Shown piece by piece: positions 1,890 to 35,440 of a stretch of 64,000 nt of DNA. The notes under the pieces are model-generated. The model saw only the letters and a list, made by a program, of their open reading frames with translations. It was not told the origin of the DNA and made no database searches. The stretch's first letter is position 1. Each line of letters begins with the position of its first letter. Source of the stretch: Asticcacaulis endophyticus (GTDB taxonomy: Bacteria; Pseudomonadota; Alphaproteobacteria; Caulobacterales; Caulobacteraceae); assembly GCF_014652575.1 (NCBI RefSeq), contig NZ_BMZB01000001.1, forward strand, positions 434,001 to 498,000, written 5' to 3'. A program made the translations under genes and the position numbers.

Positions 1890-3008
<1,119 letters not shown>

Positions 3009-14720: not shown

Positions 14721-16169
14721 TTATTCCGCAGCCTCCGACAGAGACAAAGCTAACTGGGTTTGCAGATAGTGGTGGATATCAGCGGCGGCGTCCTGACCTT
14801 CACGGACAGCCCACACCACCAAAGATGCACCGCGCACAATATCACCGGCGGCAAAGACACCGGGCACGAGGGTCTGGAACTCACCGGCCAGAGTCTTGAT
14901 CGTACCCCACTTGGAGACCTCAAGGCCCGGTTCATTGAACATGACCGGAATGTTTTCCGGCTCAAAGCCCAGCGCCTCAATGATCAGATCGGCCGGCAGA
15001 TCGTTCTCGGCACCGGCAATATCTTCGATACCCTGACGGCCTTGCGCGTCCGGCGTGGTCAGGCGCATACGCTGCACCTTAAGGCCGGTGACGGTCTCGG
15101 CATCGCCCAGCACGGCCATCGGCGCTGACAGCCATTCGAACTTCACGCCTTCTTCTTCGGCGTTATACACTTCGCGGTCAGACCCCGGCATGTTGGCGCG
15201 GTCACGACGGTAGACGCAGGTGACAGACTTTGCCCCCTGACGAGTGGCGGTACGCACGCAGTCCATAGCCGTATCGCCACCGCCGATGACGATGACGTTC
15301 TTACCTTCGGCATTCAGACGGCCCGACACATAGTCCGGTACATTATCGCCAAAACCGACGCGGTTCGACGCGGTCAGGTAATCGAGCGCAATGACCACGC
15401 CCTGCGAGCCACAACCGGGCACGCTCAGGCGGCGGGTCTTATAGACGCCCGTGGCGATCAGGATGGCGTCGTGCTTTTCGCGCAGTTCTTCAAACGACAC
15501 GTCGTTGCCGATGTCGCAGTTCATGACATATTCGACGCCCGATTGCGCGAGGCGATCCGTACGGCGCAACACGACCTCTTTCTCTAGCTTGAACGACGGG
15601 ATACCATAGGTCAGCAGGCCACCGGCGCGGTCATAGCGGTCATAGATGGTGACTTTGTATCCGAGCGTGCGCAGACGGTCAGCCGCGGCGATACCGGCAG
15701 GGCCAGCACCTATGATGCCAACGCTCTGTCCGCGCTCCTGCACCGGCACAATCGGTTCGATCCAGCCGTTCTCAAACGCCATATCGCCTAAGAAACGCTC
15801 AACGGAACCAATAGTGACGTTTTCCCAACCGGATTGTTCCAGCACGCAGGAGCCTTCGCACAGGCGATCCTGCGGGCAGATACGACCGCAAATTTCCGGC
15901 AGGGTCGAGGTCGCCGACGACAGCAGGTAAGCTTCTTCGTAACGGCCTTCTGCGGTCATGCGCAGCCAGTCAGGGATGTTGTTCTGCAAAGGGCAACCCG
16001 ACTGGCAGAACGGCACACCGCACTGCGCGCAGCGCGAAGACTGGGTCGTGGCCTGGGCCGGTTTGAAATCGGCGTAAATTTCCGAGAAGTTATTAATGCG
16101 GGTTTTCGCATCATGCTTCTGCGGCGTGCGCCGGACTTCGACAACAAAGCGGTTCGTTTCGCCCGTCAT
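14721..16169 (-). CDS. gltD: Glutamate synthase (NADPH) small chain
   Basis: A 482-residue NADPH- and FAD-binding partner of GltB. The N-terminus holds the double iron-sulfur cysteine set CAQCGVPFCQSGCPLQNNIP (about residues 42-61). The FAD motif GIIGAGPAGIAAADRL lies near residue 150 and the NADPH motif VIVIGGGDTAMDC near residue 290. It delivers electrons from NADPH to the large subunit. The ribosome site GGAGG precedes the ATG. It is first in a two-gene operon with gltB. Confidence 0.96.
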   Translation of the reverse strand: MTGETNRFVVEVRRTPQKHDAKTRINNFSEIYADFKPAQATTQSSRCAQCGVPFCQSGCPLQNNIPDWLRMTAEGRYEEAYLLSSATSTLPEICGRICPQDRLCEGSCVLEQSGWENVTIGSVERFLGDMAFENGWIEPIVPVQERGQSVGIIGAGPAGIAAADRLRTLGYKVTIYDRYDRAGGLLTYGIPSFKLEKEVVLRRTDRLAQSGVEYVMNCDIGNDVSFEELREKHDAILIATGVYKTRRLSVPGCGSQGVVIALDYLTASNRVGFGDNVPDYVSGRLNAEGKNVIVIGGGDTAMDCVRTATRQGAKSVTCVYRRDRANMPGSDREVYNAEEEGVKFEWLSAPMAVLGDAETVTGLKVQRMRLTTPDAQGRQGIEDIAGAENDLPADLIIEALGFEPENIPVMFNEPGLEVSKWGTIKTLAGEFQTLVPGVFAAGDIVRGASLVVWAVREGQDAAADIHHYLQTQLALSLSEAAE

Positions 16170-22138: not shown

Positions 22139-22723
22139 TCAATCGGTAACGGGTAAGGGATCAGGCCGCGCAACCCCATCCCAGTCGCGCGTATCCGGAT
22201 ATTTGCGCCGAAACTGCGCCCATTCTTCGGCGGTTTGTTCAAACACATAAAGATCGCGCGCGATACCGTCCTTGACGACCTTGCCGGGTTCGACCCCGAT
22301 CTGACGGTAGCCGTTATATTTCTGAACCTTGATGACGCGCGGGTTCCAGTCGGCAATATGGTTGACCAGCTTGGTAAGCCGCAACGCAAAAAAGGCGTGG
22401 TTCAGGGTCGGCACAAAATTATACATGGTCAGGTCGCCCGGCACGTCGCGCTCACCCATATAGATGCCGATTTCACCAATACGTTCATCCATATCGACAA
22501 TAGTAATCGAGGTATAGCCGACCGGCCGGCCATGAATCAGGATCAGCCGGTGATGGTAATCAGCGCGGGCATTGCTGCGCTCAATCCATGCCCGCTGTTT
22601 ATCTAGGTCATAGTCCACCACCGTCAGCATATAGGGTGCGACATGATCCGCCGTACGCCAGTCTAGTATCATCTGGGCGTCATCAATCGTCGGTTCGCGA
22701 AACGACATGTGTGCGTAGGTCAT
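22139..22723 (-). CDS. pseH: GNAT acyltransferase, probable PseH (UDP-amino-sugar N-acyltransferase)
   Basis: A 194-residue GNAT-fold enzyme. In the pathway it acylates the 4-amino group of UDP-4-amino-4,6-dideoxy-beta-L-AltNAc made by PseC. Seen are REPTIDDAQMILDWRT at the start, the strand EIGIYMGERD, and RVIKVQKYNGYRQIGV near the C-terminus, which match the PseH/FlmH pattern of acting on substrates between PseC and PseG. Its start is 2 bases after the pseG stop. Because the operon also encodes KAS III, SDR and oxygenase enzymes, its acyl donor may not be acetyl-CoA. Confidence 0.8.
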   Translation of the reverse strand: MTYAHMSFREPTIDDAQMILDWRTADHVAPYMLTVVDYDLDKQRAWIERSNARADYHHRLILIHGRPVGYTSITIVDMDERIGEIGIYMGERDVPGDLTMYNFVPTLNHAFFALRLTKLVNHIADWNPRVIKVQKYNGYRQIGVEPGKVVKDGIARDLYVFEQTAEEWAQFRRKYPDTRDWDGVARPDPLPVTD

Positions 22724-22725
22724 GG

Positions 22726-23739
22726 TCAGAGACTCAATTCGTTCATGATCTCAACAATCCGGCGCGGCCCCTGCCCGTCGATCAGGCCCTTGGCGCGCGT
22801 GGCGGTTTCCTGACAAATTTCAGGATGCATCAGAAAGGTCGCCACCCACTGCGCGAAGTCATCCGGCAAACCTGAGCGCGCATCCATCACCGGATAGGGT
22901 GAGGATTTCAGCGACATGACCTGATTATCGACCACAATCAGCACCAGCGCCATCAGGTTCTGAGCGGCGATTTCTCCGACGCTGCCGCCTGCCGCCGTTA
23001 CCACCAAAGCCGCACCGTTGAGGGTTTCGGCCACACTATCAGGGGCCACATGCAAAGACACCTGCTCCATGCCCGCGATCTGGGCCGATAACGCCTCAAT
23101 GTGCGGATTGGCGGGGCCAGCGATCAGGCGGATCGGCACGCGCTGGCCGATCATCGGGAACATTTCATGGTAGAGATGACTGAGCGCCTGACACGTCAGG
23201 TTTTTAGGATCTGACCCGCCAAACATGAGGGCAATAAACCCCTCCTGATCGAACTTTGGGTATTCGCGGCTAAACTCCGCCCGGATCGGCGCATAGCGCG
23301 GCCCCAGACACGTAATCGCCTTGGGGGCTATATCGTCATAGGGTAAGGTCTTGGCCGCCGCCGCGGCATTGACCACCATATGGGCGCGGATATGGCTGAG
23401 TTTAGCCAGATCATCCATAACCAGTACCCGGCAATGATCATACATGGCGGCAATATAGTCAGGCGTCGCGCTATAGCTGTCGATGATCAGCCAGTGATGA
23501 CTGGAAATCAGTACGCGCAACGCGACCCCATCCGCCTGAGAGCCGATCCGGCTTTGCACCTGCACCCAGTTGGCGCCAATGGCCGCCATATGTTTTTGCG
23601 CGGCGCTTGATGCCTCATTGAGGATGAAGCTGACCTTCCATCCGTGCGCACGGGCGGCTTCGGCAATCGCAAAACAACGCATGAAATGGCCAAGCCCCAA
23701 GGTGGGCGAGGCTTCGGTTCTGATCCACAGTCGCGCCAT
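22726..23739 (-). CDS. pseG: UDP-2,4-diacetamido-2,4,6-trideoxy-beta-L-altropyranose hydrolase PseG
   Basis: A 337-residue GT-B-like hydrolase that removes UDP from the diacetamido sugar, the fourth step to pseudaminic acid. The N-terminal GLGHFMRC (residues 15-22) contains the catalytic His region. The nucleotide-binding half has LMFGGSDPKNLT near residue 172 and TAAGGSVGEIAAQ near residue 250. Its start overlaps the stop of the preceding KAS III gene in a TAATG arrangement, so the sugar and acyl genes are translationally coupled. Confidence 0.9.
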   Translation of the reverse strand: MARLWIRTEASPTLGLGHFMRCFAIAEAARAHGWKVSFILNEASSAAQKHMAAIGANWVQVQSRIGSQADGVALRVLISSHHWLIIDSYSATPDYIAAMYDHCRVLVMDDLAKLSHIRAHMVVNAAAAAKTLPYDDIAPKAITCLGPRYAPIRAEFSREYPKFDQEGFIALMFGGSDPKNLTCQALSHLYHEMFPMIGQRVPIRLIAGPANPHIEALSAQIAGMEQVSLHVAPDSVAETLNGAALVVTAAGGSVGEIAAQNLMALVLIVVDNQVMSLKSSPYPVMDARSGLPDDFAQWVATFLMHPEICQETATRAKGLIDGQGPRRIVEIMNELSL

Positions 23740-24761
23740 TATGGCTGATCCTTATGCGGCAGGCGGATGATATCGCAATAACGCGGCAGAGGGGTGCGCC
23801 AGACGGCTGACGCCCACGACCAGCCCACACCGAACCCACTCAGCAGCAGATTGACCGGCTTTTTCGATGTCGCCTGATGGAACGTCTCGCACATCGCCAG
23901 CGGAATGGAGGCCGGGCCGGTATTGCCGTAGTCCCTGACCACCTCCACCACCTGTTCGTCACGCAGACCGATCTTCTTGGCCAGAGACTGGATCATCATG
24001 GCATTGGCCTGATGCAGGATAACATGGTCCATGTCGTCAGCCGCCAAACCCACCGCCGCCAACGCGCGTGCCACCGATGGCGCCACCTGACGCAGGGAAA
24101 ACGACAGTACCCGCGCCCCGTCCATATAAAGACGCGGATCACCGGGATGGGCCACCCCGCCGGTTTCCGACATCAAATGTGGCGCACCCGTGCCGTCGGC
24201 CCCTAGATCAAAGCCAATCTGATGATCGTCATCTGACGCTTCCAAAGCCGTGGCCGCCACCGCATCGCCAAACAGCAGTCGCAAGGCCCGGTCATCATCG
24301 GCAATCATGCTGTTGATGACATCGCCACCGAGCAGCAGGGCCCGCTTGAGGCCGCCCGCCGCCATCATCGACGATATGATGCTTAAGGCATAGACGAAGC
24401 CGGAACATCCCAGACGTAGATCAAGGGTCGCGGTGGTTATCGGCAGGCCCAGTCGGCCATGCACCACATAGGAGGTCGCGGGTAAGGGATAGTCCGGCGT
24501 CTGGGTTACCAAAACCAACAGATCAATGCTGTCCTTGTCCCAGCCCAGACCATCCATCAGATTTTGTGCGGCGGCCACCGCCATATCGCTGATGAGCAGT
24601 CCGTCTGAAACCGGACGGGTCTCAATGCCGGTCGCCCGGATGATCTTATCCACCATCTCTTCGCCAAACAGACCCGACAGATCGTGGTTCGATTCCTGAT
24701 GCGCCGGCATGGCCGTGACTATGCCTCTGAGGGCTGGGGCGCGGGTTACAAATGTGACCAT
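23739..24761 (-). CDS. 3-oxoacyl-ACP synthase III-like enzyme (KAS III paralogue B)
   Basis: A 340-residue thiolase-fold condensing enzyme. The complete triad is present: Cys119 in RLGCSGF, His250 in LHQAN and Asn280 in YGNTGPASIPLA. The C-terminus has SGFGVGWSW, shared with the second KAS III of the operon. KAS III enzymes join an acyl-CoA primer to malonyl-ACP; relatives transfer acyl groups to other acceptors. The setting between an alpha/beta hydrolase gene and pseG argues for a dedicated pathway and not for housekeeping fatty-acid synthesis. Confidence 0.87.
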   Translation of the reverse strand: MVTFVTRAPALRGIVTAMPAHQESNHDLSGLFGEEMVDKIIRATGIETRPVSDGLLISDMAVAAAQNLMDGLGWDKDSIDLLVLVTQTPDYPLPATSYVVHGRLGLPITTATLDLRLGCSGFVYALSIISSMMAAGGLKRALLLGGDVINSMIADDDRALRLLFGDAVAATALEASDDDHQIGFDLGADGTGAPHLMSETGGVAHPGDPRLYMDGARVLSFSLRQVAPSVARALAAVGLAADDMDHVILHQANAMMIQSLAKKIGLRDEQVVEVVRDYGNTGPASIPLAMCETFHQATSKKPVNLLLSGFGVGWSWASAVWRTPLPRYCDIIRLPHKDQP

Positions 24762-24771
24762 GACCGCACCC

Positions 24772-25611
24772 CTATACTGCCGTTTCCAGAAAGGCTTTTA
24801 AGCGCGCCACGACCATCGCCCCCGCCTCGACATGGGGCAGGTGCCCCACGTCCGGCAGGACATGAATGGCGGCATCCACCGGCAGATAGGCCGCCTCACG
24901 CAACGGGGTCAGACGGTCCTGATCGCCCCAGATAAACTGTATGGGGCAGCGCAACCGCGTCCAGTCACGCCATTCCGGCGATAACGCTACGCCAAAGGTC
25001 TTGGCAGTCTCCAGCAGCTTAGCAAAAGCCGCCTGACGTTCGGGATTACTGACCGCCTCAAAAAGCGCCTGCGCCAGGGCGGGCACCATCTGGGCGTGGC
25101 TATCGGCCACCAGAAACCGGGCCAGATCATGTGCGGTCTTTAGCGATGGTGCGGCCAGATAGGCATCCATGGTTTCGTAATGAAAAGGCCCGCCAAGGCC
25201 CGCCGGCGCGATGAGGCTAAGGGACTGCACCCGTTCTGAGTGACGATGGGCCAGACCCAAGGCCAGCTTGGCCCCCATCGAATGGCCGACCACATGGGCA
25301 GAGGTCACTTTCAGCAGGGTCAAGGCTTCGTCCAGCCAGCCAGTCATGAACGCGACATCACCGTCGCCAACCTCGTGTCCCGACCGGCCATGCCCCGGCA
25401 GATCGAGCGCAATGATCCGGTAGCGCGCCATAAACGCGGGCAGACAGTAATGCCAGGCCAGACAATCCGCCCCCAATCCATGGAGAAAGACCAGCACCGG
25501 CCCGTCTGCACGACCCATTTCCAGATAACTGAGCGGCGCACAGCTATGATCGGAGTTCAACGACAAACTGAGGCGCCGGGACGGGGCTTTGGGCGCAGTC
25601 ACGGCGGTCAT
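24772..25611 (-). CDS. Alpha/beta hydrolase
   Basis: A 279-residue hydrolase. The oxyanion HGLGADC lies near residue 44, the nucleophile elbow GHSMGAK near residue 110, the acid Asp in WGDQDRLTP near residue 233, and the His in VGHLPHVE near residue 259, so the triad is complete. In this operon a thioesterase role, releasing or editing an acyl intermediate, is the simplest idea; the sequence alone gives no substrate. It overlaps the SDR gene by 4 bases (ATGA) and ends 10 bases before KAS III B. Confidence 0.83.
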   Translation of the reverse strand: MTAVTAPKAPSRRLSLSLNSDHSCAPLSYLEMGRADGPVLVFLHGLGADCLAWHYCLPAFMARYRIIALDLPGHGRSGHEVGDGDVAFMTGWLDEALTLLKVTSAHVVGHSMGAKLALGLAHRHSERVQSLSLIAPAGLGGPFHYETMDAYLAAPSLKTAHDLARFLVADSHAQMVPALAQALFEAVSNPERQAAFAKLLETAKTFGVALSPEWRDWTRLRCPIQFIWGDQDRLTPLREAAYLPVDAAIHVLPDVGHLPHVEAGAMVVARLKAFLETAV

Positions 25612-26399
25612 GCCAAAAGGCCCCCATCGACCGCCATGATCGACCCGGTGATCCAGCGCGAGGTATCGGCCAGCAGAAAGGCCACGGCGGCGGCGACATC
25701 TTCAGGGTATCCGATGCCCAGCGGATGGGCGGCGGTCAGGCGCTGATAGCCATCCTCGGTCAGCTTACGGTAGGCATGGGCGATGGGCGTATCCACCAGC
25801 GCCGGGGCGACGCAATTGACCCGCAGACCGTCGCGCACCAACTCGATCCCCAGACTGCGCGTCATGGCCGCCATACCGCCTTTTGACGCCGCATAGACCG
25901 AATTGCCGGACGCTCCGCGCAAGGCCGAGGTTGAGGCCACAAACACCAATGAGGCCTGCGGCGTATGGCACGTCTTAAGCCGCATACCCTGCGCCAGCAC
26001 CAGCGCTGCCGTCAGATTGGCGTCAAACACCTCACGGATATAATCGAGATTTACCGTTTGCAGCGGTCGCATCGACTGAATACCGGCACAGTGTGCCAGA
26101 CCGTTTAAGGGGCCATAAAGCGCGCACATTTCCTTCATCCACGGCACGATCAGCTCATGTTGCGACAGGTCGAGCACGCGCCCGACATGGCCCTCACCCG
26201 GCATCTCATTCAGCGTTTCCTGCAATCTTTCGGCATTACGGCCGGACGCAATGACCTTTGCCCCCAGCTTGGCCAGATAGATAGCCGTGCCCTTACCGAT
26301 ACCACTGGAGGCCCCTGTCACCAGAATGGTCCGCCCCTCAAGCGACATAGGATTGAACGGTTCACGCGCCAGATTTTGTGTCGGCATCAGATCGCTCAT
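25608..26399 (-). CDS. SDR-family oxidoreductase, 3-oxoacyl-ACP reductase-like
   Basis: A 263-residue short-chain dehydrogenase. It has the cofactor motif TGASSGIGKGTA near residue 27, the Ser of VASTSALRGASG, the catalytic YAASK near residue 170, and the C-terminal ITGSIMAVDGG. Start ATG 26399 follows a GGGGG ribosome site and overlaps the oxygenase stop by 4 bases; a longer frame to 26447 lies inside that gene. With KAS III and ACP neighbours it probably reduces a 3-oxoacyl intermediate to the 3-hydroxy form. Confidence 0.87.
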   Translation of the reverse strand: MSDLMPTQNLAREPFNPMSLEGRTILVTGASSGIGKGTAIYLAKLGAKVIASGRNAERLQETLNEMPGEGHVGRVLDLSQHELIVPWMKEMCALYGPLNGLAHCAGIQSMRPLQTVNLDYIREVFDANLTAALVLAQGMRLKTCHTPQASLVFVASTSALRGASGNSVYAASKGGMAAMTRSLGIELVRDGLRVNCVAPALVDTPIAHAYRKLTEDGYQRLTAAHPLGIGYPEDVAAAVAFLLADTSRWITGSIMAVDGGLLA

Positions 26400-27490
26400 A
26401 AGGCCCCCTTCATTCGGTTGGCATAGACAGCATGAAAATGGGCGCAAGCATCTTCCATCTTACCTAACAAAGGTGCGCGCGGCGTGGCCATCGATGTCAG
26501 CCCCAGATGCACCTTGGCACAGATGCCGTGATCCTCGGACCGCACCTTATCGGAAAACTCTTTAAGCTGCGCCACGATCATGTCGCGGGCGGCCCCGCCC
26601 TTATTGCGGCCCAGAAACAGCCCGGCATTGACCGCGGTGGCATCCACCCCGATCGGATCAAACATCAGGGCGGAATAGAAGCCACCCCAGCTCATATTGA
26701 TGACCAAATTGGGAAAGACCAGAAAACAGGCATATTCGGGATAGCGCGGCGTGGTCTGCAATCCGATGGCCTTGGAGACGCCGGCCCACCATTTCACCGA
26801 CTGTTCGCGAAAATCGCCCAGAAAATAACCGTGCTCACCCTCAGCCGTCAGGCGCAGATCGGGCTTTAACATGGCCGCGAAACTTTCAGGATGCACCAGA
26901 GGGACATGATACCCTTCGGCGGCATTGTCCACACCCAGCTTCCAGTTAAAGTCCCAAAACGCCTGATGGCTATCAAACCGCTCCGGGCAGGTATCGCTCA
27001 AATGCTCAAGGATGTCATAAAACCCAGCCAAGAACCCGCGCAGATCCGGCCCGTCCGCGGCCATGCGCACAAACACAAATCGACCGCAGGTCTCAAGCGC
27101 AAACGCCTCAAGCCGTAAGGACTGCCGGTCATCGTCACTCAGGTCAAAGCTTTTGGCATTATGCGGCACACCCACCGGCGTGCCGTCGCCATCAAACGAC
27201 CAGCCGTGATAGGGGCAGGTCAGTGGCCGGTTACCCTTCGCCTCACACTGGATACGCGAAAACCGGTGGGTGCAGACATTGCGAAAGGCCCGTAATGTGC
27301 CTTTGACATTCTGCACGACAATATTGGTCTTACCGATCTGACGGGTGATGAAATCGTTCGGGTTTTGCAGATCATCGCTAAAGCCCAGGCACAACCACGA
27401 AGGGGCAAATACCCGTTCCATCTCGGCCTCGAACACGTCGGGCCTGAGATAAACGTCAGAGGTAAAGCCGCTGTAGAGCCCGTCAAACAT
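26396..27490 (-). CDS. Rieske-type ring-hydroxylating oxygenase, alpha-subunit-like
   Basis: A 364-residue non-heme iron oxygenase. The Rieske 2Fe-2S ligands are Cys73 and His75 (CTHR) with Cys92 and His95 (CPYHGW). The mononuclear iron site is DNAAEGYHVPLVH near residues 192-204, with a late Asp in SEDHG. Length and spacing match the terminal oxygenases. No reductase or ferredoxin partner is in the operon, so electrons must come from elsewhere. The start follows the KAS III A stop by 2 bases. Presence in a nonulosonic acid operon is unusual; the substrate may be the acyl chain or sugar. Confidence 0.87.
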   Translation of the reverse strand: MFDGLYSGFTSDVYLRPDVFEAEMERVFAPSWLCLGFSDDLQNPNDFITRQIGKTNIVVQNVKGTLRAFRNVCTHRFSRIQCEAKGNRPLTCPYHGWSFDGDGTPVGVPHNAKSFDLSDDDRQSLRLEAFALETCGRFVFVRMAADGPDLRGFLAGFYDILEHLSDTCPERFDSHQAFWDFNWKLGVDNAAEGYHVPLVHPESFAAMLKPDLRLTAEGEHGYFLGDFREQSVKWWAGVSKAIGLQTTPRYPEYACFLVFPNLVINMSWGGFYSALMFDPIGVDATAVNAGLFLGRNKGGAARDMIVAQLKEFSDKVRSEDHGICAKVHLGLTSMATPRAPLLGKMEDACAHFHAVYANRMKGAL

Positions 27491-27492
27491 GT

Positions 27493-28557
27493 TCAGTATT
27501 CGTCGATCTGGGGTGCCCGGATCGCCGTCATATCTAGCTTGATCGCTCCCCACGACCAGCCCACCCCAAAGCCCATCATGACCATGCGCTGCGGCTTTGT
27601 CAGTTCATCCGACAGATGCGACGCCATAGCCAGCGGGATCGAGGCCGATGACGTGTTGCCATAAGCGCCCAGCGCTATCGGCACCTTCTCTTCCGGAAGG
27701 CCTATTTTTTTACGCAGGTGATTGAGCATGAAGGCGTTGGCCTGATGCAGCACGACATAATCAACATCATCGGCCGTAATACCCGCCGTCTCAAACAGTT
27801 CTTTCGCCAGCGCCGGCACGGCCCGCAAGGTGAAGTTAAACACCTCCGCCCCGTTCAGATGCAGGCGCGATTCCTTATAAAGGGCGGCCTGGTCTTCGGG
27901 CGATTTGGGTTCATCGGCCGGCACCAGTGAGCGGCGCATAGCCCCCGCCTTGACCATGATATGCTCGGCGCCTGATCCGTCCGTGCCGAACACACCGTGC
28001 CAGATACCGCCGGCGTCATCGACCTCCAGCGCCGTCGCCGATCCGGCATCGCCAAACAAAGGCACGGTCGCCTTATCGTCTTTCAGCAGCTTTACGGTCG
28101 AAATATCCCCGGCCAGAACCAACGCGCGGGCGGGTCTGCCCGCAACCGTCAGCGTCTTCAGTAAACTGGCTGCCGTCCACAAACCGTAGGGATAACCCGA
28201 ACAGCCTAAGTTGATATCAAAAGCCAGACAGTTGCCGATGCCCATTCGCGTTTGCAGGGTGCAGGCGGTCGCCGGAATGACGAAATCGGGACTTTGGGTG
28301 ACCATGATCAGCACATCGATGCTATCCTTGGCCCAGCCCAGTTCGGCCAAGAGGTTCTCAGCCGCCCGCTCACACAGATCAGACGTCGTTACACCCTCAG
28401 CCGCCACCCGGCGCTCGATCACCCCGATCGAGCCGGTCAGGCGGTCACGGTCTTTGGCTTCGGGAAAAAGGCCTTCGTCCTCAAGGCGGCGGATATCCTT
28501 CGGCACGCACACCCGCACGCCCTTGATTGCAATGCCGCTTAAACGGGCTGAAGTCAT
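27493..28557 (-). CDS. 3-oxoacyl-ACP synthase III-like enzyme (KAS III paralogue A)
   Basis: A 354-residue KAS III, first gene of a seven-gene operon. The triad is Cys119 (NLGCSGYPYG), His271 (LHQAN) and Asn301 (YGNTSSASIPLA). The ending GFGVGWSWGA matches paralogue B. The start ATG 28557 follows GGAGGG, while the longer frame to 28608 lacks support. An insert near residues 205-235 (SLVPADEPKSPEDQAALYKE) is not in paralogue B. It probably begins the acyl chain and cooperates with the divergent ACP gene 146 bases away. Confidence 0.88.
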   Translation of the reverse strand: MTSARLSGIAIKGVRVCVPKDIRRLEDEGLFPEAKDRDRLTGSIGVIERRVAAEGVTTSDLCERAAENLLAELGWAKDSIDVLIMVTQSPDFVIPATACTLQTRMGIGNCLAFDINLGCSGYPYGLWTAASLLKTLTVAGRPARALVLAGDISTVKLLKDDKATVPLFGDAGSATALEVDDAGGIWHGVFGTDGSGAEHIMVKAGAMRRSLVPADEPKSPEDQAALYKESRLHLNGAEVFNFTLRAVPALAKELFETAGITADDVDYVVLHQANAFMLNHLRKKIGLPEEKVPIALGAYGNTSSASIPLAMASHLSDELTKPQRMVMMGFGVGWSWGAIKLDMTAIRAPQIDEY

Positions 28558-28703
28558 GCCGGCCCTCCGTCGGGTTTGGGACGATGTCGCGTTAACCTTA
28601 GTTAGCAAGTTTTAAGCAAATATTGACGAAAACCATATTCCCTGTGACCTGATCAACTTAGCCGCACGCGCCGATTCGTGCAGGCCTTACCGGAGTACCG
28701 TAC
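28558..28703. promoter_or_regulatory. Divergent promoter region of the acyl/Pse operons
   Basis: These 146 bases separate the leftward KAS III A operon from the rightward ACP-PhyH-pseF operon. It is AT-rich near the middle and contains a TTGACG (28623-28628) pointing towards the ACP gene, but no good -10 at standard distance. Shared control of both operons from here is likely. Confidence 0.4.
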
Positions 28704-28925
28704 ATGGACAAACCCGCTTTTTTCGCCGCCGTTGCGGAAATACTTGAAACCGAGACGACTGGTCTTACAGGTGATGAAACGCTTGATGCCCTAGGCAACT
28801 GGGACAGTCTGGCGGTTATCTCGTTCGTGGCCATGGTCGATTCAGACCTCGACCGGATCGTCGATAATGAAAAATTGAAGCAAGCCAAAACCCTCAACGA
28901 TCTGGCAGACCTCGCAGGGCTTTAA
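28704..28925 (+). CDS. Acyl carrier protein
   Basis: A 73-residue acidic four-helix carrier. The phosphopantetheine attachment Ser35 sits in GNWDSLAVISF, a variant of the usual DSL motif. The protein begins MDKPAFFAAVAEILE and ends with LNDLADLAGL. It is not the housekeeping AcpP type (which has GADSLD) but the specialised type found in glycan and secondary-metabolite clusters. It starts the rightward operon and is 2 bases from the PhyH gene. It is the likely carrier for the acyl group made by the two KAS III enzymes. Confidence 0.9.
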   Translation: MDKPAFFAAVAEILETETTGLTGDETLDALGNWDSLAVISFVAMVDSDLDRIVDNEKLKQAKTLNDLADLAGL

Positions 28926-28927
28926 AA

Positions 28928-29851
28928 ATGACCCCGACCTTTTCAGAACGGCTAAGGACCCGCGTGCCGTCCCTGAAACGGTTTTCTGAGCGCGCCCGCA
29001 CAGACCCGCGCCATATCGCCTATGATCTTTTGCCGGTTCTGGGTTTACCTGAGCGCGGCGGCGTGTCGGCAATGATCGCAGCTTTAAAACCCAAAACTCC
29101 CGATTTTGCCCCGTCCGATACGGCCCGCGGCTTATGCCAAGCCCTGCAACAGGACGGCCTGACCCCGGTACAACCGGCCATACCGGGCGATGTGATTAAT
29201 GAGGTGGTGGACTACTTCAAGGCCACACCCTGCCATGATCCGTTCCGACCACAGGTGGGCACGTTCGGCTGGGACACACCGCCCGCAGATGAGATCAATA
29301 TGGGCTACTACACCGCAGAGGAAACCCTGCGCGCCCCCCATATGCTCGATCTGATGAACCGACCCGAAGTGTTGCAGGTGATGGAATTGCGATTGGGATG
29401 TAAACCGGTGGTCGATAATATCGGCGCCTTCTGGTCATACCCGCAGCGCCATACCGCCAAGGGGGTGCAGCGCTTTCACCGCGATTACGACTGTGTGCAA
29501 AACATCAAGGTGTTCTACTACCTGACCGAAGTTGACGACGACGCGGGTCCCCATATGTTTGTGCGCGGCTCCCACCATGACCGCATCTTAGAGACCGGTA
29601 AGGCCCAAACCGATGCGGCCATTACGGAAGCGTTTGGCGCGGATCGCATCACCGCCATTACCGGCCCCGCCGGGTCGTGGTTTCTTGAGGACGTTTATGG
29701 TTTTCACAAGGGCCAGTTGCCGGTCAATAAGCCGCGTCTGCTACTGGCCATCCAGTATAATCTCTACGCCTCACCGCACTGCCCGAAAGCGCCCCTTATG
29801 GATAATCCCGGCGGCTATGATCCCTATATCAACCGGATTTTCCTGCGATGA
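28928..29851 (+). CDS. Phytanoyl-CoA dioxygenase (PhyH) family 2-oxoglutarate/Fe(II) oxygenase
   Basis: A 307-residue oxygenase of the double-stranded beta-helix fold. Iron ligands are seen in FHRDYD near residue 186 (HxD) and GFHKGQ near residue 258. The 2-oxoglutarate Arg is in KPRLLLAIQY. GSHHDRIL between them is typical of the PhyH family. Substrates in the family are acyl chains or carrier-bound and sugar compounds. It lies between the ACP and pseF genes and overlaps pseF by 4 bases, so it probably hydroxylates an ACP-bound acyl group or the sugar product. Confidence 0.82.
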   Translation: MTPTFSERLRTRVPSLKRFSERARTDPRHIAYDLLPVLGLPERGGVSAMIAALKPKTPDFAPSDTARGLCQALQQDGLTPVQPAIPGDVINEVVDYFKATPCHDPFRPQVGTFGWDTPPADEINMGYYTAEETLRAPHMLDLMNRPEVLQVMELRLGCKPVVDNIGAFWSYPQRHTAKGVQRFHRDYDCVQNIKVFYYLTEVDDDAGPHMFVRGSHHDRILETGKAQTDAAITEAFGADRITAITGPAGSWFLEDVYGFHKGQLPVNKPRLLLAIQYNLYASPHCPKAPLMDNPGGYDPYINRIFLR

Positions 29852-30564
29852 GCGCTCCAAATCTAAAGTCTGTCGCCATTATCCCCGCCCGTGGCGGCTC
29901 AAAGCGCATCCCGCGCAAGAATATCAAGCCCTTTCATGGTCAGCCGATGATCAGCTATTCGGTCCGCGCGGCGATCGACAGCGGCCTGTTTGAGCGGGTG
30001 ATCGTCTCGACTGACAATGCCGAAATCGCTGAGGTCGCGAAAGAATACGGCGCTGAAATCCCGTTCCTGAGACCGCCCGAACTGGCCGATGATCATACCG
30101 GCACAGGGGCCGTCGTGGTCCATGCGATCAATTGGTTTAAAGCGCGGGGGATCGAGTTTGATCTGGCCTGCTGCATCTACGCCACCGCCCCGTTCATTCA
30201 GGTAGAACGCCTGATTGAAGGCCATGATGCCTTGCTGGCGCACAACAAATCCTTTGCGTTTTCCGTCACATCCTTTGCCTTCCCCATCCAGCGGGCCTTG
30301 AAACGCACGCCGGACGGCAGCGTCGATATGTTCTGGCCGGAGAACCTGAACAAGCGTTCGCAGGATTTAGAGGCTGCCTATCACGACGCCGCCCAGTTCT
30401 ACTGGGGTAGAACCGAGGCCTGGCTTAATGGCCATATCGCCTTTTCACCGGTCTCCGTGCCAGTCATCCTGCCCCGCCATCTGGTCCACGATATCGACAC
30501 CCCCGAAGATTGGGACGTCGCCGAAGTGGCGTTTGAAGTGCTGAAGAGACGTGGATCGATTTAG
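29848..30564 (+). CDS. pseF: Pseudaminic acid cytidylyltransferase PseF
   Basis: A 238-residue nucleotidyltransferase that activates pseudaminic acid to CMP-Pse. The N-terminal CTP motif IIPARGGSKRIPRKN (residues 10-24) is complete. Further on are FLRPPELADDHTGT near residue 72, CCIYATAPFI near residue 109, and the C-terminal DIDTPEDWDVAE. The family also includes NeuA and LegF; the QDLEAAYHDAAQFYWG stretch is the PseF pattern. It is the last gene of the ACP-PhyH-pseF unit, separated from the rest of the Pse genes by a NYN gene. Confidence 0.9.
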   Translation: MSAPNLKSVAIIPARGGSKRIPRKNIKPFHGQPMISYSVRAAIDSGLFERVIVSTDNAEIAEVAKEYGAEIPFLRPPELADDHTGTGAVVVHAINWFKARGIEFDLACCIYATAPFIQVERLIEGHDALLAHNKSFAFSVTSFAFPIQRALKRTPDGSVDMFWPENLNKRSQDLEAAYHDAAQFYWGRTEAWLNGHIAFSPVSVPVILPRHLVHDIDTPEDWDVAEVAFEVLKRRGSI

Positions 30565-30598: not shown

Positions 30599-31318
30599 AT
30601 GAAGTCCGCTAATCTGGCTATTTTAATCGACGGTGATAATTTTCCAACCGCGCACATTAGTGACGCGCTTAGTAAACTTGAAACCCACGGCACATGTACT
30701 GTGCGCCGATTATACTGTGACTGGACGCGTGACAACGCTTCCGTCTGGAAAAAGATCGTCCTGAAACATGGTCTTCAGACAATTCAGCAACTCGCATTCA
30801 GCACGGGTAAAAATGCCACTGATTTCGCGATTACCATCGACGCGATGGATCTTATGTATAGCCATAAATATGATGGCATCTGCCTTTTAACCAGCGACAG
30901 CGATTTTACCCCGTTAGTATTACGTTTGCGGCAGAATGGACTTAAGGTTTACGGCGTTGGCGAACATAAAGCCCCCCTTCCCCTTCGGGAAGCCTGCACG
31001 CAATTCATAACATTGCCCACGCCAATCCGGAACGAATCCACGCCGATACTACCTGACACACTTACATTTAATCAGCAGCTAAAGGCTGCGATTATAGCAA
31101 CTTCAAAGGACGGATGGACTACACCGGCTGTCTTGGGGCAGCATTTAAGTCAAAAACTCGGTAAGGAATATGTAGCGGCTCAGCGTAAGGAACATTCGGT
31201 AGCAACCTTAAGCAAGCTGCTGCACAAGATTAGCCCCGGCTATGTGGAAATTGAGTTGAAAGCCGGAACAGACACTATTTCCCGTCTTCGGCTTAAACTA
31301 ACCGAAGCCAGCCATTAA
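30599..31318 (+). CDS. NYN-domain (PIN-like) protein with C-terminal OST-HTH/LOTUS-like domain
   Basis: A 239-residue protein. Residues 1-140 form a NYN ribonuclease-like fold with acidic residues in LAILIDGDNF (near residue 7), DFAITIDAMDLM (near residue 77) and LLTSDSDFTPLVLRLRQNG (near residue 95). Residues 155-235 resemble the LOTUS RNA-binding fold (LKAAIIATSKDGWTTPAVLGQHL). Such LabA/DUF88-like proteins are thought to cut or bind RNA. The gene is visibly more AT-rich than its neighbours, has its own short leader, and meets the pseI end with a 4-base overlap. It looks inserted into the Pse locus. Confidence 0.8.
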   Translation: MKSANLAILIDGDNFPTAHISDALSKLETHGTCTVRRLYCDWTRDNASVWKKIVLKHGLQTIQQLAFSTGKNATDFAITIDAMDLMYSHKYDGICLLTSDSDFTPLVLRLRQNGLKVYGVGEHKAPLPLREACTQFITLPTPIRNESTPILPDTLTFNQQLKAAIIATSKDGWTTPAVLGQHLSQKLGKEYVAAQRKEHSVATLSKLLHKISPGYVEIELKAGTDTISRLRLKLTEASH

Positions 31319-32364
31319 CCCACCATCTCGTCCGTCAGTGGTTCGCCGCGCACCAGATCGCGGGCGGCGCGTTTACCCAGCACATCCCACAGTCTGACCG
31401 GCGGCAAACCCAGTCCCGGCCGGATCGAGCGGACATTGTCCTTGGTCAGCACTTCCCCGCTTTTGACATCGGCGACCACATAGAGCGAACGCCGGAAGGT
31501 CTTTGAGCCGCGCTCAGACCCCAGAGTGTTGTAATGCACACTCCCCAAGGCGCGGTGGGCATCTTTGCAGTCTCGCACCAGCGCCGTAAACTCAGCCGGT
31601 TCCAGACTAAAACTCGAATCCGGCCCGCCATCTGCTCGCGCCAGGGTGAAATGCTTTTCAATCACGCACCCACCCAGTGATACTGCCGCGATAGACGCCG
31701 CCGTCCCAAAAGTATGATCCGACAGGCCTGACGGGCACTGAAACTTTGCCCCCAGATCAGGCACGACCCGCACATTGGCATCGTTGATATTGGCCGGATA
31801 TTCGCTGACGCAATGCAGCATCACAAACTGGCCATTGCCGTATTTGCGCACAGTCTCAACCGCCGCTTCTATTTCGGCCAGATTAGCCATGCCGGTCGAC
31901 AGGATCAGGGGCTTCATCTTAGACGCCGCATAGGCGATCAACGGCAAATCGATCATTTCAAACGACGCGATCTTATAGGCCGGGGCCCCCAGCCCTTCCA
32001 GCAGATCAACCGCGGTTTCATCAAAGGGCGATGAAAACATGGTCACACCGCGCGACCGCGACCGCGCAAACAGGGCCTCATGCCAGTCCCAGGGGGTGTG
32101 CGCTTCGTTATAGAGATCCCACAGGCCGTAGCCTTCCCACGGCCCACCGCCGATGAAAAATTCCGGCCGGTCGGATTTCATGGTGATCGTGTCGGCGGTA
32201 TAGGTCTGAAGCTTGATGGCATCGCAGCCGGTCTCCGCCGCCGCATCAACCAGCGCCAGCGCCCGTTCCAGCGAGCCGTTATGATTGCCGGACAGTTCAC
32301 AGATTATGTAGGGCGAATGAGCCGACCCGATCTTGCGTCCAGCGATCTCGATTTCATAACTCAT
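31315..32364 (-). CDS. pseI: Pseudaminic acid synthase PseI
   Basis: A 349-residue NeuB-family enzyme that condenses the 6-deoxy-diacetamido sugar with phosphoenolpyruvate. The TIM barrel begins YIICELSGNHNGSLERA and includes DAIKLQTYTADT, KIASFEMIDLPLI, LSTGMANLAEI, the iron/manganese His in VIEKHFTLAR, and the C-terminal antifreeze-like SAF domain (about 285-345, RSLYVVADVKSGEVLT). ATG 32364 overlaps the pseC stop by 4 bases. The sequence pattern favours PseI over sialic or legionaminic synthases, as do the neighbours. Confidence 0.92.
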   Translation of the reverse strand: MSYEIEIAGRKIGSAHSPYIICELSGNHNGSLERALALVDAAAETGCDAIKLQTYTADTITMKSDRPEFFIGGGPWEGYGLWDLYNEAHTPWDWHEALFARSRSRGVTMFSSPFDETAVDLLEGLGAPAYKIASFEMIDLPLIAYAASKMKPLILSTGMANLAEIEAAVETVRKYGNGQFVMLHCVSEYPANINDANVRVVPDLGAKFQCPSGLSDHTFGTAASIAAVSLGGCVIEKHFTLARADGGPDSSFSLEPAEFTALVRDCKDAHRALGSVHYNTLGSERGSKTFRRSLYVVADVKSGEVLTKDNVRSIRPGLGLPPVRLWDVLGKRAARDLVRGEPLTDEMVG

Positions 32365-33566
32365 AGGCCGCACACCTCTTTCAGGATGGCAATCACCGCC
32401 GCCGGATCGTTGTCAGTCATGTCTGGATAGAGCGGCAAGGACAGGGTTTGGCTGTAATAGGTATCCGCTCCGGGCAGGTTGCGTTGCGCAAGGGCGTGCT
32501 GCTGCCAATAGGGTTGGCGGTGCACAGGAATATAATGCACCTGCGTGCCGACACCGCCCGCTTTTAATTCAAACATAATTTCAGTGCGGGTTTTACCAAG
32601 GCTTTGATAATCAATCTGCACCGCCATAAGGTGAAAAACCGGATCAGAGTCCGGCATGGGCGGTGCCCAGCTTACCGGCAGGCGCGCCGAAGCGAGTGCC
32701 GCCTGATAGAGTTCAACCAACCGGCGGCGACGAGCGGCAAAGTGCGGCATCTTACTGAGTTGCGATACCCCCAGCGCGCAGTTCAGATCAGGTAAACGGT
32801 AATTATACCCCAAAGCCTGCATCTCGTAGACCCAACCGCCGCTATCGCGGTCGTCACCAAAGCCAAGTCCGGTAAATCGCGTCGGATCGCGCTCTAAGCC
32901 GTGGCTGCGTAGGCTGCGCAGTTTACGCGCCAGTTCGGAGTCATTAGTCATGATCGCCCCGCCTTCACCAGTCGTCAGAGTCTTGACCGGATGGAAGGAA
33001 AACACGGCCATATCGGAGTATTGGCACGCGCCGGTCATGACACCCTTATCGACGGTGCCGAGCGCATGGCAAGCATCTTCGACCACAAAGGCATCTAACT
33101 CAGCGCAGCGGCCCGCGATCTGATCCAGCGCCACCGGACGACCCGCATAATGCACCGGCACCACACCGGCAAAGCGCAGTTCGCTATAGTCACGCTGCAC
33201 GATCTTCAGCGCATCCTCAAACGTCTCATCGGTCATCAGGCCTGTTTGGGGATCGACATCGGCAAACACCACCTTTGCGCCACAGAACGCCGCACAATTG
33301 GCCGACGCCACAAAGGTAATCGACGGTACAATGATAACATCGGACGGCCCTACCCCCAAAGCCAGCATGGCCAGATGCAGCGCCGCCGTGCCGTTTGCGA
33401 CCACCACCGCCTCTTTCGCGCCGACATAGGCGGCCAGTTCGCGCTCAAAGCGTTCCACCCACGGCCCGGTGGTCAGAAAATCGGATTTCAGGGCCTCAAT
33501 GACATGATCGATGTCGGTCTGATCAATCGACTGGCGGCCATAGGCCAAAAACGGCTGGCTTAACAT
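32361..33566 (-). CDS. pseC: UDP-4-amino-4,6-dideoxy-N-acetyl-beta-L-altrosamine transaminase PseC
   Basis: A 401-residue PLP aminotransferase that acts on the 4-keto sugar made by PseB. The start LAYGRQSIDQTDIDHVIEAL is characteristic of PseC. Further motifs are VANGTAALHLAMLALGV near residue 57, VPSITFVASANC near residue 80, VEDACHALG near residue 163, and the PLP lysine in FHPVKTLTTGEGG near residue 192. It lies 5 bases after pseB and overlaps pseI, forming the order pseB-pseC-pseI. Confidence 0.94.
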   Translation of the reverse strand: MLSQPFLAYGRQSIDQTDIDHVIEALKSDFLTTGPWVERFERELAAYVGAKEAVVVANGTAALHLAMLALGVGPSDVIIVPSITFVASANCAAFCGAKVVFADVDPQTGLMTDETFEDALKIVQRDYSELRFAGVVPVHYAGRPVALDQIAGRCAELDAFVVEDACHALGTVDKGVMTGACQYSDMAVFSFHPVKTLTTGEGGAIMTNDSELARKLRSLRSHGLERDPTRFTGLGFGDDRDSGGWVYEMQALGYNYRLPDLNCALGVSQLSKMPHFAARRRRLVELYQAALASARLPVSWAPPMPDSDPVFHLMAVQIDYQSLGKTRTEIMFELKAGGVGTQVHYIPVHRQPYWQQHALAQRNLPGADTYYSQTLSLPLYPDMTDNDPAAVIAILKEVCGL

Positions 33567-33571
33567 CGCCC

Positions 33572-34624
33572 CTACCCCGTGTAGGCGGCCAAAAGCGCCT
33601 TGATGCCGTCGATGTCCAGCCGCTCAGGATTAACGTCGGAAGCGTAATAGAAATCCTCCGCCACGCGCTTTGCCCCGCGTACCTTGGCAAAGCTTTTGCG
33701 GGTATATTCGGCAAATTCCGGCTCAATTATGAACCGGTCATCCAGTTCAAAAGTTGAGCGGGCATCATCGGCGGAGATCATGACTTCATGCAGTTTTTCG
33801 CCCGGCCGGATGCCGACGGTGGGCTGCTCAAGCTCAGGGGCCATGGCGGTGGCCAGATCCGTCATCAGGGTCGCCGGAATCTTCGGCACGAAAATTTCCC
33901 CGCCCTGCATCAGCTCTAACGACGACAAAACGAAATTCACCCCCTGATCAAGCGTGATCCAGAACCGCGTCATGCGCGGATCGGTGATCGGCAGGGTCTT
34001 GGAACCATTCGCAATCAGGCGCTTAAACAATGGCACCACCGACCCGCGTGAGCCGATGACATTGCCATAACGCACGGCGCAGAACCGGATGCCGGTATCG
34101 CCGGCCATATTGTTGGCGGCCACGAAAATCTTGTCCGACGCCAGTTTGGTCGCGCCATACAAATTGATCGGTGAACAGGCCTTATCGGTCGAGAGTGCGA
34201 CCACCCGGTGCACACCCGTCTGCAAGCAGGCCGAAACGACATTTTCCGCACCATTGACGTTGGTGGCGATACATTCGGACGGGTTATATTCCGCCGCAGG
34301 CACCTGTTTCAGCGCGGCGGCATGGATGACGATATCGACCCCGCGAAACGCCGTAACCAGCCGCAAACGGTCGCGTACATCCCCTAAGAAAAAGCGCAGG
34401 CGAGAGATTTTTTCCTTGGGGAACATCTCTTCCAGTTCGGCGCGCATCTCATATTGCTTAAGCTCATCGCGCGAAAAAATGATGACCTTCTTCGGATCAT
34501 AATCCCGCAGCAGCGTCATGACCATCTTGCGCCCGAACGATCCGGTGGCACCGGTGATCAGAACGACCTTGCCCTGAACGGGGTCCATCTGAGGGGCAAA
34601 ATCACGGTATAACGGTGCGGACAT
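33572..34624 (-). CDS. pseB: UDP-N-acetylglucosamine 4,6-dehydratase (inverting) PseB
   Basis: A 350-residue SDR enzyme that dehydrates and inverts UDP-GlcNAc, the first step to pseudaminic acid. The NADP motif ITGATGSFGRKMV lies near residue 24, SRDELKQYEMR near residue 51, the catalytic NLYGATKLASDK near residue 155, and the family-specific MTRFWITLDQGV near residue 221. The Caulobacter homologue is FlmA. It starts the pseBCI group, 54 bases after the TagA-like gene, which is probably in the same transcript. Confidence 0.94.
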   Translation of the reverse strand: MSAPLYRDFAPQMDPVQGKVVLITGATGSFGRKMVMTLLRDYDPKKVIIFSRDELKQYEMRAELEEMFPKEKISRLRFFLGDVRDRLRLVTAFRGVDIVIHAAALKQVPAAEYNPSECIATNVNGAENVVSACLQTGVHRVVALSTDKACSPINLYGATKLASDKIFVAANNMAGDTGIRFCAVRYGNVIGSRGSVVPLFKRLIANGSKTLPITDPRMTRFWITLDQGVNFVLSSLELMQGGEIFVPKIPATLMTDLATAMAPELEQPTVGIRPGEKLHEVMISADDARSTFELDDRFIIEPEFAEYTRKSFAKVRGAKRVAEDFYYASDVNPERLDIDGIKALLAAYTG

Positions 34625-34678: not shown

Positions 34679-35440
34679 TTAACGCCGATCTCGCCTCATT
34701 AAATCCCTCATAGCATGGGGGATCAACACCCACGGTTCCAGGAAATAGCGGCTGAACAAACGCTTCGGCTCATGGAAAAACCTGACCAGCCATTCGATAC
34801 CCATCTGCCCGGTCCAGCGCGGCGGGGTGTACATGACACCGGCCTCATAATCGAAAGCCGCCCCGATCGGCATGATCGCACACTCAGGCAGTCGCTTCAG
34901 GTTATTGAGTATCCAGAGTTCCTGACGCGGCATTCCCATGCCGACCAACAATACATCCGGTTTTTGAGCCGCAAGCTCGGCCAAAAGCCGCTCATTATCA
35001 GCGCCCGTCACATCGAAATAACCGGTGTGCATGTCTAGGTGAACCTGGGGGAAGCGTTTAAGGATCGCTGCCTTCGATAGCGGATTATGCGCCGGCGCAC
35101 CGCCAACATGACAGACCCGCCAGCCCTCACTTTGCGCCCGCGCCCAGAAGCTTTCGCGAAAATCGAGATAGGTGCAGCGATGGGCCCGCGATACGTCTTT
35201 GCCAAGCAACCGCCCCCACAGGATCATGGGCGTCGAGTCGATCTCGATCAGGTCGGCCTTATCGTAAAAGGCCCGCATGTCTGAGCGGCGATGAAACAGA
35301 TAAAGACTGTGCAGATTATGATTGGCGATCACCATCTGGCGTTTTGCGGTCACTGACTGCGCGATGGCCGACATCACCTCATCGGGAGTGACGGCATCGA
35401 CTTCGGCTCCAAGCAAAGACAGGCGGCATGAGGGTGTCAT
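34679..35440 (-). CDS. WecG/TagA/CpsF-family glycosyltransferase
   Basis: A 253-residue GT26 enzyme, which usually adds N-acetylmannosamine(uronate) or a related sugar to a polyprenyl-linked acceptor at the membrane. Motifs are VIANHNLHSLYL near residue 37, IEIDSTPMILW near residue 65, the core CHVGGAP near residue 115, LLVGMGMPRQELWI near residue 165, and GAAFDYEAGVMYTPPRW near residue 198. The C-terminal basic tail (RDLMRRDRR) may bind membrane. The start codon lies inside a 13-bp perfect hairpin; a TTG nine codons later is the alternative start. Confidence 0.88.
   Translation of the reverse strand: MTPSCRLSLLGAEVDAVTPDEVMSAIAQSVTAKRQMVIANHNLHSLYLFHRRSDMRAFYDKADLIEIDSTPMILWGRLLGKDVSRAHRCTYLDFRESFWARAQSEGWRVCHVGGAPAHNPLSKAAILKRFPQVHLDMHTGYFDVTGADNERLLAELAAQKPDVLLVGMGMPRQELWILNNLKRLPECAIMPIGAAFDYEAGVMYTPPRWTGQMGIEWLVRFFHEPKRLFSRYFLEPWVLIPHAMRDLMRRDRR

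Follow-up and report, generated by a model that had tools for sequence, protein, structure and literature searches.

A recurrent acyl-building and oxygenase cassette beside pseudaminic acid genes suggests a custom acyl group on the sugar in Asticcacaulis

A 64,000-nucleotide stretch of the genome of Asticcacaulis endophyticus (contig NZ_BMZB01000001.1, positions 434,001 to 498,000; the whole stretch is hereafter the window, numbered from its first letter) carries genes for pseudaminic acid that are interleaved, at 22139-30564, with a set of genes for building and oxidising an acyl group. This set, termed here the cassette, comprises two paralogues of beta-ketoacyl-acyl carrier protein synthase III (KAS III-A and KAS III-B), a dedicated acyl carrier protein (ACP), a short-chain dehydrogenase/reductase (SDR), a Rieske oxygenase, an alpha/beta hydrolase and a PhyH-family oxygenase, and it travels with a divergent form of the N-acyltransferase PseH. 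The cassette and the pse genes are well supported as a genetic unit, and their content suggests that the organism may make a pseudaminic acid with a custom-built, oxidised side group instead of the plain acetyl. An earlier note on the window had proposed an unusual, oxidised acyl group on pseudaminic acid or a related sugar; the recurrence of the set beside pse genes supports this as the best fit, as a prediction of the chemistry.

Gene organisation

The ten genes at 22139-30564 have the coordinates, strands and families that the earlier note gave them. Seven lie on the reverse strand and are read leftwards: KAS III-A (27493..28608, with a further ATG at 28557; Pfam ACP_syn_III), the alpha subunit of a Rieske non-heme iron oxygenase (26396..27553, likely start ATG 27490; PF00355 and PF00848), a ketoreductase-like SDR (25608..26447, likely start ATG 26399; PF13561 and PF00106, with FabG-like NCBIfam matches under cut-off), a thioesterase- or acyltransferase-like alpha/beta hydrolase (24772..25611; PF00561), KAS III-B (23739..24761; Pfam ACP_syn_III), pseG (22726..23739) and pseH (22139..22723). 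Three are divergent on the forward strand: the ACP, with a DSL phosphopantetheine site (28704..28925; PF00550), the PhyH-family 2-oxoglutarate/Fe(II) oxygenase (28928..29851; PF05721) and pseF (29848..30564). Both gene orders had been described in the note and are borne out.

The distances between neighbours are 2 bases for pseH/pseG, -1 for pseG/KAS-B, 10 for KAS-B/hydrolase, -4 for hydrolase/SDR, 2 for ACP/PhyH and -4 for PhyH/pseF. The longest open reading frames of SDR/Rieske and Rieske/KAS-A overlap by 52 and 61 bases, because these frames open at early TTG or GTG starts; with the internal ATGs at 26399 and 27490 the two junctions become a 4-base overlap and a 2-base gap. The tight, operon-like spacing that had been claimed thus holds, at -4 to 10 bases, when the internal ATGs of SDR and Rieske are used. 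The divergent KAS III-A and ACP genes are 95 bases apart, and promoter and terminator scans gave results at chance level.

A divergent PseH

The six Pse enzymes were tested against NCBIfam equivalog cut-offs. The statement that all six standard pse genes are present stands for PseB, PseC, PseI, PseG and PseF, which exceed their cut-offs, and fails for PseH (45 against 93 bits). The window PseH, a PseH-like GNAT N-acyltransferase, scores 45.4 bits with TIGR03585, under the cut-off of 93.1 bits for the acetylating enzyme, against 162, 152 and 165 bits for the canonical PseHs scanned in the genus, and the premise that a standard acetylating PseH acts here is accordingly not supported. It is the sole TIGR03585 match above 30 bits in its genome, and seven cassette-linked PseHs score 45-77 bits.

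For the alignment and tree, 70 PseH sequences were reduced to 59 by dropping two that are not pse-type (L104 and L105) and repeats sharing the last 170 residues; homologues below 60 bits were excluded (L234, L236 and L238 among 16 stretches). The 45 non-redundant cassette-linked PseHs fall on one side of a branch with support 98/92 and the 14 others on the opposite side, with a long-branch warning that applies mostly to the others. Two of the sequences labelled as cassette-linked, from L223 and L224, have no KAS III match in the stretch and one in the genome, and six of the 14 homologues without a cassette (L192, L227, L229, L230, L231 and L233) have none of pseG, pseI and pseF in their stretch and may not be true PseHs; L192 does pass the PseH cut-off.

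The two groups differ in the G-x-G/A loop, which we take to be the site of the coenzyme-A pyrophosphate in GNAT enzymes and whose position was set from the alignment of canonical PseHs. G-x-G is kept in 14/14 homologues without a cassette and, in the alignment, in the Campylobacter jejuni enzyme (4xpk). The loop is absent in 30 of the 45 cassette-linked PseHs, the remainder having GxG (6) or GxA (9); in the window PseH the two motif positions are occupied by D and T. Loss of the loop may point to a donor without adenosine-pyrophosphate, as would be the case with acyl-ACP. In the Helicobacter pylori enzyme the main chain of Gly103, a possible counterpart of this loop, holds the pyrophosphate of the coenzyme, according to the accessible part of that report (PMC4363471).

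Distribution of the cassette in the genus

Occurrence was followed in 25 Asticcacaulis genomes and in a family sample of 199 genomes, with KAS III-A called at E up to 1e-60, window-type PseH at no less than 53% identity, and genes per locus counted by profile score thresholds of our own setting. KAS III-A is present in 18 of the 25 genus genomes and window-type PseH in exactly the same 18 (Fisher exact p 2e-6 over the 25 genomes, uncorrected for kinship). PseI exceeds its cut-off in 24/25, so the sugar is general in the genus and the cassette is not. Canonical PseH is over cut-off in seven genomes, three without the cassette (G085, G094 and G149) and four with both types; 14 of the 18 cassette genomes have no PseH over the canonical cut-off.

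KAS-A, ACP, SDR, Rieske and pseF are found at all 18 cassette loci, pseG at 17, pseH at 16, the hydrolase at 15, KAS-B and PhyH at 14 each and an AMP-ligase at seven. Two of the stretches end before pseH, and a PseH search finds the gene in both genomes; the contig of L029 ends inside the set, so that the lack of KAS-B, hydrolase, pseG and pseH in that stretch does not establish their absence. KAS III-A is 96, 93 and 66% identical in three same-genus contigs. In relatives such as L028, hydrolase and KAS-B are separated by an AMP-ligase and a further SDR, both of which the window lacks. Searching the 199 family genomes with PhyH gave matches in 20, 14 of them in the genus, and in 13/13 other PhyH-bearing genus neighbourhoods pseF-PhyH-ACP diverges from KAS-A-Rieske-SDR in the same arrangement. 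Four further Asticcacaulis genomes hold the set without PhyH, and PhyH, at 14/18 loci, was rejected as a defining member of the cassette.

In the window the cassette lies between a SelR gene (Pfam) and pseF. The cassette-free genomes G085 and G094, with no KAS III-A genome-wide at E 1e-60, have beside a SelR-like gene (recognised by eye) pseG, another PhyH-family gene, canonical PseH (162 and 152 bits) and pseF, and no KAS, ACP or Rieske in this pse stretch. The difference between cassette and canonical PseH at the SelR-pseF site may be read as a natural swap. An accompanying exchange of PseG was considered and rejected, its identity overlapping between cassette and cassette-free relatives. 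The PhyH-family gene between pseG and canonical pseH (L189 7909-8826, a Pfam match; L190 7545-8462) was missed by the window PhyH profile.

Recurrence in other lineages

The earlier note had held that recurrence of the gene set beside pse genes elsewhere would support its proposal. The search was run, and the set recurs in the genus and in other families, standing beside pse genes in Azospirillum, Acetobacter, a Rhodobacteraceae bacterium (SB2) and Shewanella. In a class sample of 385 genomes, relatives of KAS III-A were found in 10 (E up to 1e-60); eight of these, the window genome included, have KAS III-A above 300 bits and are exactly the eight genomes with the best PseH (at least 189 bits). 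In the remaining two (G312 and G236) the KAS match is weaker, and a PseH search up to E 1e-12 finds nothing. Neighbourhoods for the class-wide PseH matches (n=41) were taken from 16, six more and the window, the weaker matches being left out. KAS, ACP and Rieske gave no profile match in six pse stretches with other PseHs (L225, L226, L228, L232, L235 and L237); SDR is present in L228, a weak PhyH match in L232, and L226 is cut by a contig end. Among five PhyH stretches from other genera, L034 and L036-L038 contain no other cluster gene and L035 contains pseC, pseF, pseG and pseI without KAS.

A scan of contigs for KAS III-A loci gave, among its best 80, six from Asticcacaulis, 30 others (L074-L102 and L138) and 44 further loci. 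Loci of Asticcacaulis machinosus LKC15W (L069) and Asticcacaulis sp. YBE204 (L070) carry the set. Azospirillum, Niveispirillum, Nitrospirillum, Acetobacter lambici, Rhodobacteraceae SB2 and two Shewanella are among the 30. Of these 30 stretches, 27 contain at least one pse gene, and 16 of the 27 contain a pse gene different from PseH; 25 have cassette-type PseH and 22 have Rieske. Acyl and sugar genes alternate in a single run in SB2 and in Shewanella, the order in the two Shewanella being KAS-A, SDR, pseG, Rieske, pseI, a cytidylyltransferase-family gene, ACP, SDR and pseH. The cytidylyltransferase-family gene at the pseF position (L099) falls short of all PseF and KdsB cut-offs. Next to the set there are flagellar genes in SB2 (flhB and motA/B, by eye) and in Acetobacter (FliL).

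The 44 further loci belong to other phyla and also to beta-proteobacteria and sphingomonads, and have no pse gene over the thresholds we set; an ACP match is present in 41, a DegT-type gene in 18 and Rieske in 13. Given that Rieske recurs in these KAS/ACP loci without pse genes, it is tied to the acyl part of the cassette. Sets of KAS III, ACP, SDR and Rieske were seen in L106, L109, L112, L113, L117, L118, L120, L122, L125, L135 and L145, from Undibacterium, Janthinobacterium, Sphingobium, Methylovorus and others, with a DegT-type aminotransferase gene in 9/11 stretches. One more set, in another genus (G008, L039, 8320-16680), has two KAS III, ACP, SDR, Rieske and a PhyH-like gene, no pse gene in 19 kb, and adjoining genes that look by eye like glycosyltransferases; here the acyl module may serve another sugar.

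Catalytic residues and remaining genes

The acyl-building and oxygenase enzymes retain their active sites (identical sequences counted once, score thresholds again ours). The Cys/His/Asn triad is intact in 119/119 aligned KAS-A and 19/19 KAS-B sequences, the Rieske [2Fe-2S] ligands and His/His/Asp iron site in 42/42, the His/Asp/His/Arg of PhyH (HxD...H...R) in 17/17, the ACP serine (Ser35) in 42/42 and the SDR Tyr and Lys in 66/66; the hydrolase has its serine (Ser111) in 23/23 and Asp232 and His257 in 21/23, with two gapped rows each. A FabH over its cut-off (405 bits) is encoded elsewhere in the window genome, on contig C4, and both cassette KAS III genes are therefore extra. The genome encodes one more KAS III homologue, its fourth (C2:233504-234445), which is under the FabH cut-off. 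The nearest solved chain to KAS III-B is 4efi, and those nearest to the Rieske protein are carnitine monooxygenases, enzymes with an aliphatic substrate. For PhyH, a comparison with solved structures gave no related sequence up to E 1.

The remaining Pse enzymes exceed their cut-offs. PseG, the UDP-sugar hydrolase, scores 171 bits (TIGR03590, cut-off 153.6) and PseF, the CMP-pseudaminic acid synthetase, 338 bits (TIGR03584, cut-off 205.7). On the reverse strand beyond pseF lie genes for the pseudaminic acid synthase PseI (31315..32373; TIGR03586, 490 bits, cut-off 340), the aminotransferase PseC (32361..33566; TIGR03588, 468 bits, cut-off 424) and the inverting 4,6-dehydratase PseB (33572..34624; TIGR03589, 506 bits, cut-off 408). 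A WecG/TagA/CpsF glycosyltransferase gene adjoins pseB (34679..35440, reverse strand; PF03808, TIGR00696 over cut-off); it is a possible user of the sugar, its membership of the locus being uncertain. An NYN-domain gene for a putative RNase (30599-31318) lies between pseF and pseI and overlaps the end of pseI by 4 bases.

As to the destination of the sugar, the window genome has six flagellin matches. Neither MptE-like/Maf proteins (PF01973) nor members of PF13844 (GT41), which we take to be the family of FlmG, were found in the window genome as flagellin transferase, the former being a weak negative since the four control genomes matched were all archaea. Two adjacent tetratricopeptide-repeat proteins of 545 and 618 residues are encoded directly upstream of the flagellin genes (G000 C4, L187 3045-6535); their C-terminal parts match no Pfam family, and they are candidates only for a flagellin glycosyltransferase.

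Discussion

It is suggested, as a reading we consider probable though well short of secure, that the locus makes CMP-pseudaminic acid with a custom N-7 acyl group that is assembled on the dedicated ACP, undergoes oxidation and is attached by the specialised PseH. PseB and PseC would give UDP-4-amino-4,6-dideoxy-AltNAc as usual, and KAS III-A (and KAS III-B) with the ACP and SDR would give a short 3-hydroxyacyl-ACP, in the simplest case by way of acetoacetyl to 3-hydroxybutyryl. The Rieske enzyme, joined in many species by PhyH, would then oxygenate the acyl chain, and the specialised PseH would move the completed acyl group off the ACP and onto the 4-amino group of the UDP-altrose intermediate; this amino group would become N-7 after PseG, PseI and PseF. 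Residue masses computed for such products are 360.153 Da with 3-hydroxybutyryl at N-7, 376.148 Da with one more oxygen and 392.143 Da with two, against 316.127 Da for Pse5Ac7Ac. Given that it is the divergent PseH, the N-acyltransferase of the third step, that travels with the set, the acyl site would be the amide that becomes N-7. KAS-B and the hydrolase might serve in a second round of condensation, or else in releasing or editing the acyl-ACP. The length of the chain, the sequence of the oxidations, direct donation by ACP, attachment at N-7 and the eventual recipient of the sugar (flagellin or a glycan of the envelope) we infer rather than observe.

Several observations weigh against this reading or narrow it. 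First, 15 of the 45 cassette-linked PseHs keep GxG or GxA, namely 12 from Azospirillaceae and three that group with them in the tree, and the cassette-linked PseH of Shewanella corallii, at 94.8 bits, is just over the canonical cut-off; ACP as the direct donor is therefore not general. Second, KAS-B, hydrolase and PhyH occur in only 14, 15 and 14 of the 18 loci and, each being absent from some cassette loci, their steps are not core. Third, in 11 of the 30 best non-Asticcacaulis loci PseH is the sole pse gene of the stretch examined, KAS III-A lies about 265 kb (G372) and about 56 kb (G468) from pseH, and three Asticcacaulis genomes (G080, G052 and G124) have PseI over cut-off and neither PseH type. 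PseG does not segregate by cassette: the window PseG shares 44-45% identity with its counterparts in two cassette-free relatives and 45-50% with those in three that have the cassette. Finally, Pfam identified no reductase for the Rieske enzyme among the ten cluster proteins, a genome-wide reductase search not having been made; two Pyr_redox_2 flavoproteins are encoded in the window (14721-16169, adjoining glutamate synthase, and 1911-3008), and nothing ties either to the Rieske gene.

Of the other explanations, it is possible, and in our judgement unlikely, that the cassette makes an unoxidised short acyl group such as 3-hydroxybutyryl for PseH and that Rieske and PhyH hydroxylate the sugar or another group. 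The core of ACP, KAS III, reductase and acyltransferase does match the viosamine island of Pseudomonas syringae, where the product is 3-hydroxybutyryl; the variable PhyH gene lies between ACP and pseF; and PhyH-family genes stand beside pse genes without KAS in G085, L232 (96 bits) and L035 (33% identity). The distribution of Rieske nevertheless argues against it: being present in 18/18 Asticcacaulis cassettes and in 13/44 KAS/ACP loci without pse genes, Rieske follows the acyl and not the sugar genes, a distribution which has no bearing on PhyH.

Somewhat more doubtful still is the proposal that the acyl is placed elsewhere, as an O-acyl, at N-5 or on a further glycan sugar, and that PseH still acetylates from acetyl-CoA. 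It would account for the 15 cassette-linked PseHs that retain the loop and give a role to the alpha/beta hydrolase, a possible acyltransferase found in 15/18 cassettes, and a liposugar component was suggested by the authors of the Aeromonas study discussed below for their islands (PMC7874193, as far as that source was available). PseH, however, is the member that co-varies with the cassette, and no PseH over the canonical cut-off is left in 14/18 cassette genomes. That the KAS, ACP and Rieske genes make an unrelated lipid or polyketide and are chance neighbours of the pse genes is very improbable, for although other lineages, other phyla included, have similar sets of KAS, ACP and SDR with no pse genes nearby, the operons are interleaved, the co-occurrence with one PseH type in the genus is exact, the PseHs form a single clade, and the set recurs in several families.

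Flagella and surface polysaccharides carry pseudaminic acids, whose N-acyl groups can influence how glycosyltransferases, phages and immune receptors recognise them. If the custom N-7 acyl is correct, the PseH clade together with KAS III-A, ACP and Rieske would be a sequence marker for makers of oxidised acyl groups among environmental and plant-associated Proteobacteria, and an ACP-dependent sugar N-acyltransferase and two oxygenases would become available for making new nonulosonic acids. A bolder extension, offered tentatively and leaning towards doubt, is that the cassette is a mobile polyketide-like module with a private ACP, paired KAS III, Rieske and 2-oxoglutarate-dependent oxidation and direct transfer from ACP to sugar by a GNAT PseH that lacks the loop, and that distant lineages use this acyl module for other amino sugars, with DegT aminotransferase genes next to it.

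Relation to known systems

The P. syringae viosamine island is the precedent named in the earlier note, and the comparison holds, ACP, KAS III, ketoreductase and sugar N-acyltransferase being together in the window too, where they are known as genes. In P. syringae, mass spectrometry of a vioR mutant supports a pathway to N-(3-hydroxy-1-oxobutyl)-viosamine on flagellin (PMC3927599). As far as the available text of that report goes, the island (vioS, vioR, vioB and acp) resembles this locus in having a dedicated ACP, KAS III, 3-oxoacyl-ACP reductase and amino-sugar acyltransferase, and differs in acting on dTDP-viosamine, in having one KAS III and in having no Rieske or PhyH among its seven listed genes.

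Closer in its sugar are the Aeromonas Group II flagella glycosylation islands, which go with a 376.14 Da pseudaminic acid derivative on flagellin (PMC7874193). In the portion of that paper available, ACP and a 3-oxoacyl-ACP reductase stand beside pse genes as they do here, with an AMP-dependent synthetase in addition, and a C4H6O3 acyl replacing one acetyl would fit the mass (376.148 computed), as would other compositions. The Aeromonas islands differ in having luxC and luxE instead of two KAS III and, as described there, no Rieske or PhyH and no link drawn by the authors between PseH and the acyl. In the window, LuxC and LuxE had no Pfam match (E up to 0.001) among 40 selected proteins between 53 and 47481.

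Two further systems share single elements. In Acinetobacter baumannii psaABCGHF, the replacement of psaD and psaE by psaG and psaH goes with 7-N-(R)-3-hydroxybutanoyl pseudaminic acid, the module, unlike this locus, containing no ACP, KAS or oxygenase genes as listed in the accessible part of the source (PMC9676051). In Shewanella oneidensis sfmABCDE, a predicted 3-oxoacyl-ACP reductase is needed for normal pseudaminic acid-type flagellin modification; the set differs in its NeuB-type, thiamine pyrophosphate-enzyme, methyltransferase and ATP-grasp genes and has no KAS III, ACP or Rieske among the five, again from the part of the report available (PMC3765264). The open-access literature yielded no report joining Rieske or PhyH oxygenases to pseudaminic acid, a weak negative since few subscription journals were covered and no search was aimed at PhyH. 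Related parts of the cassette are thus already known from other systems, and the combination of Rieske and PhyH oxygenases with pseudaminic acid appears to be its new element.

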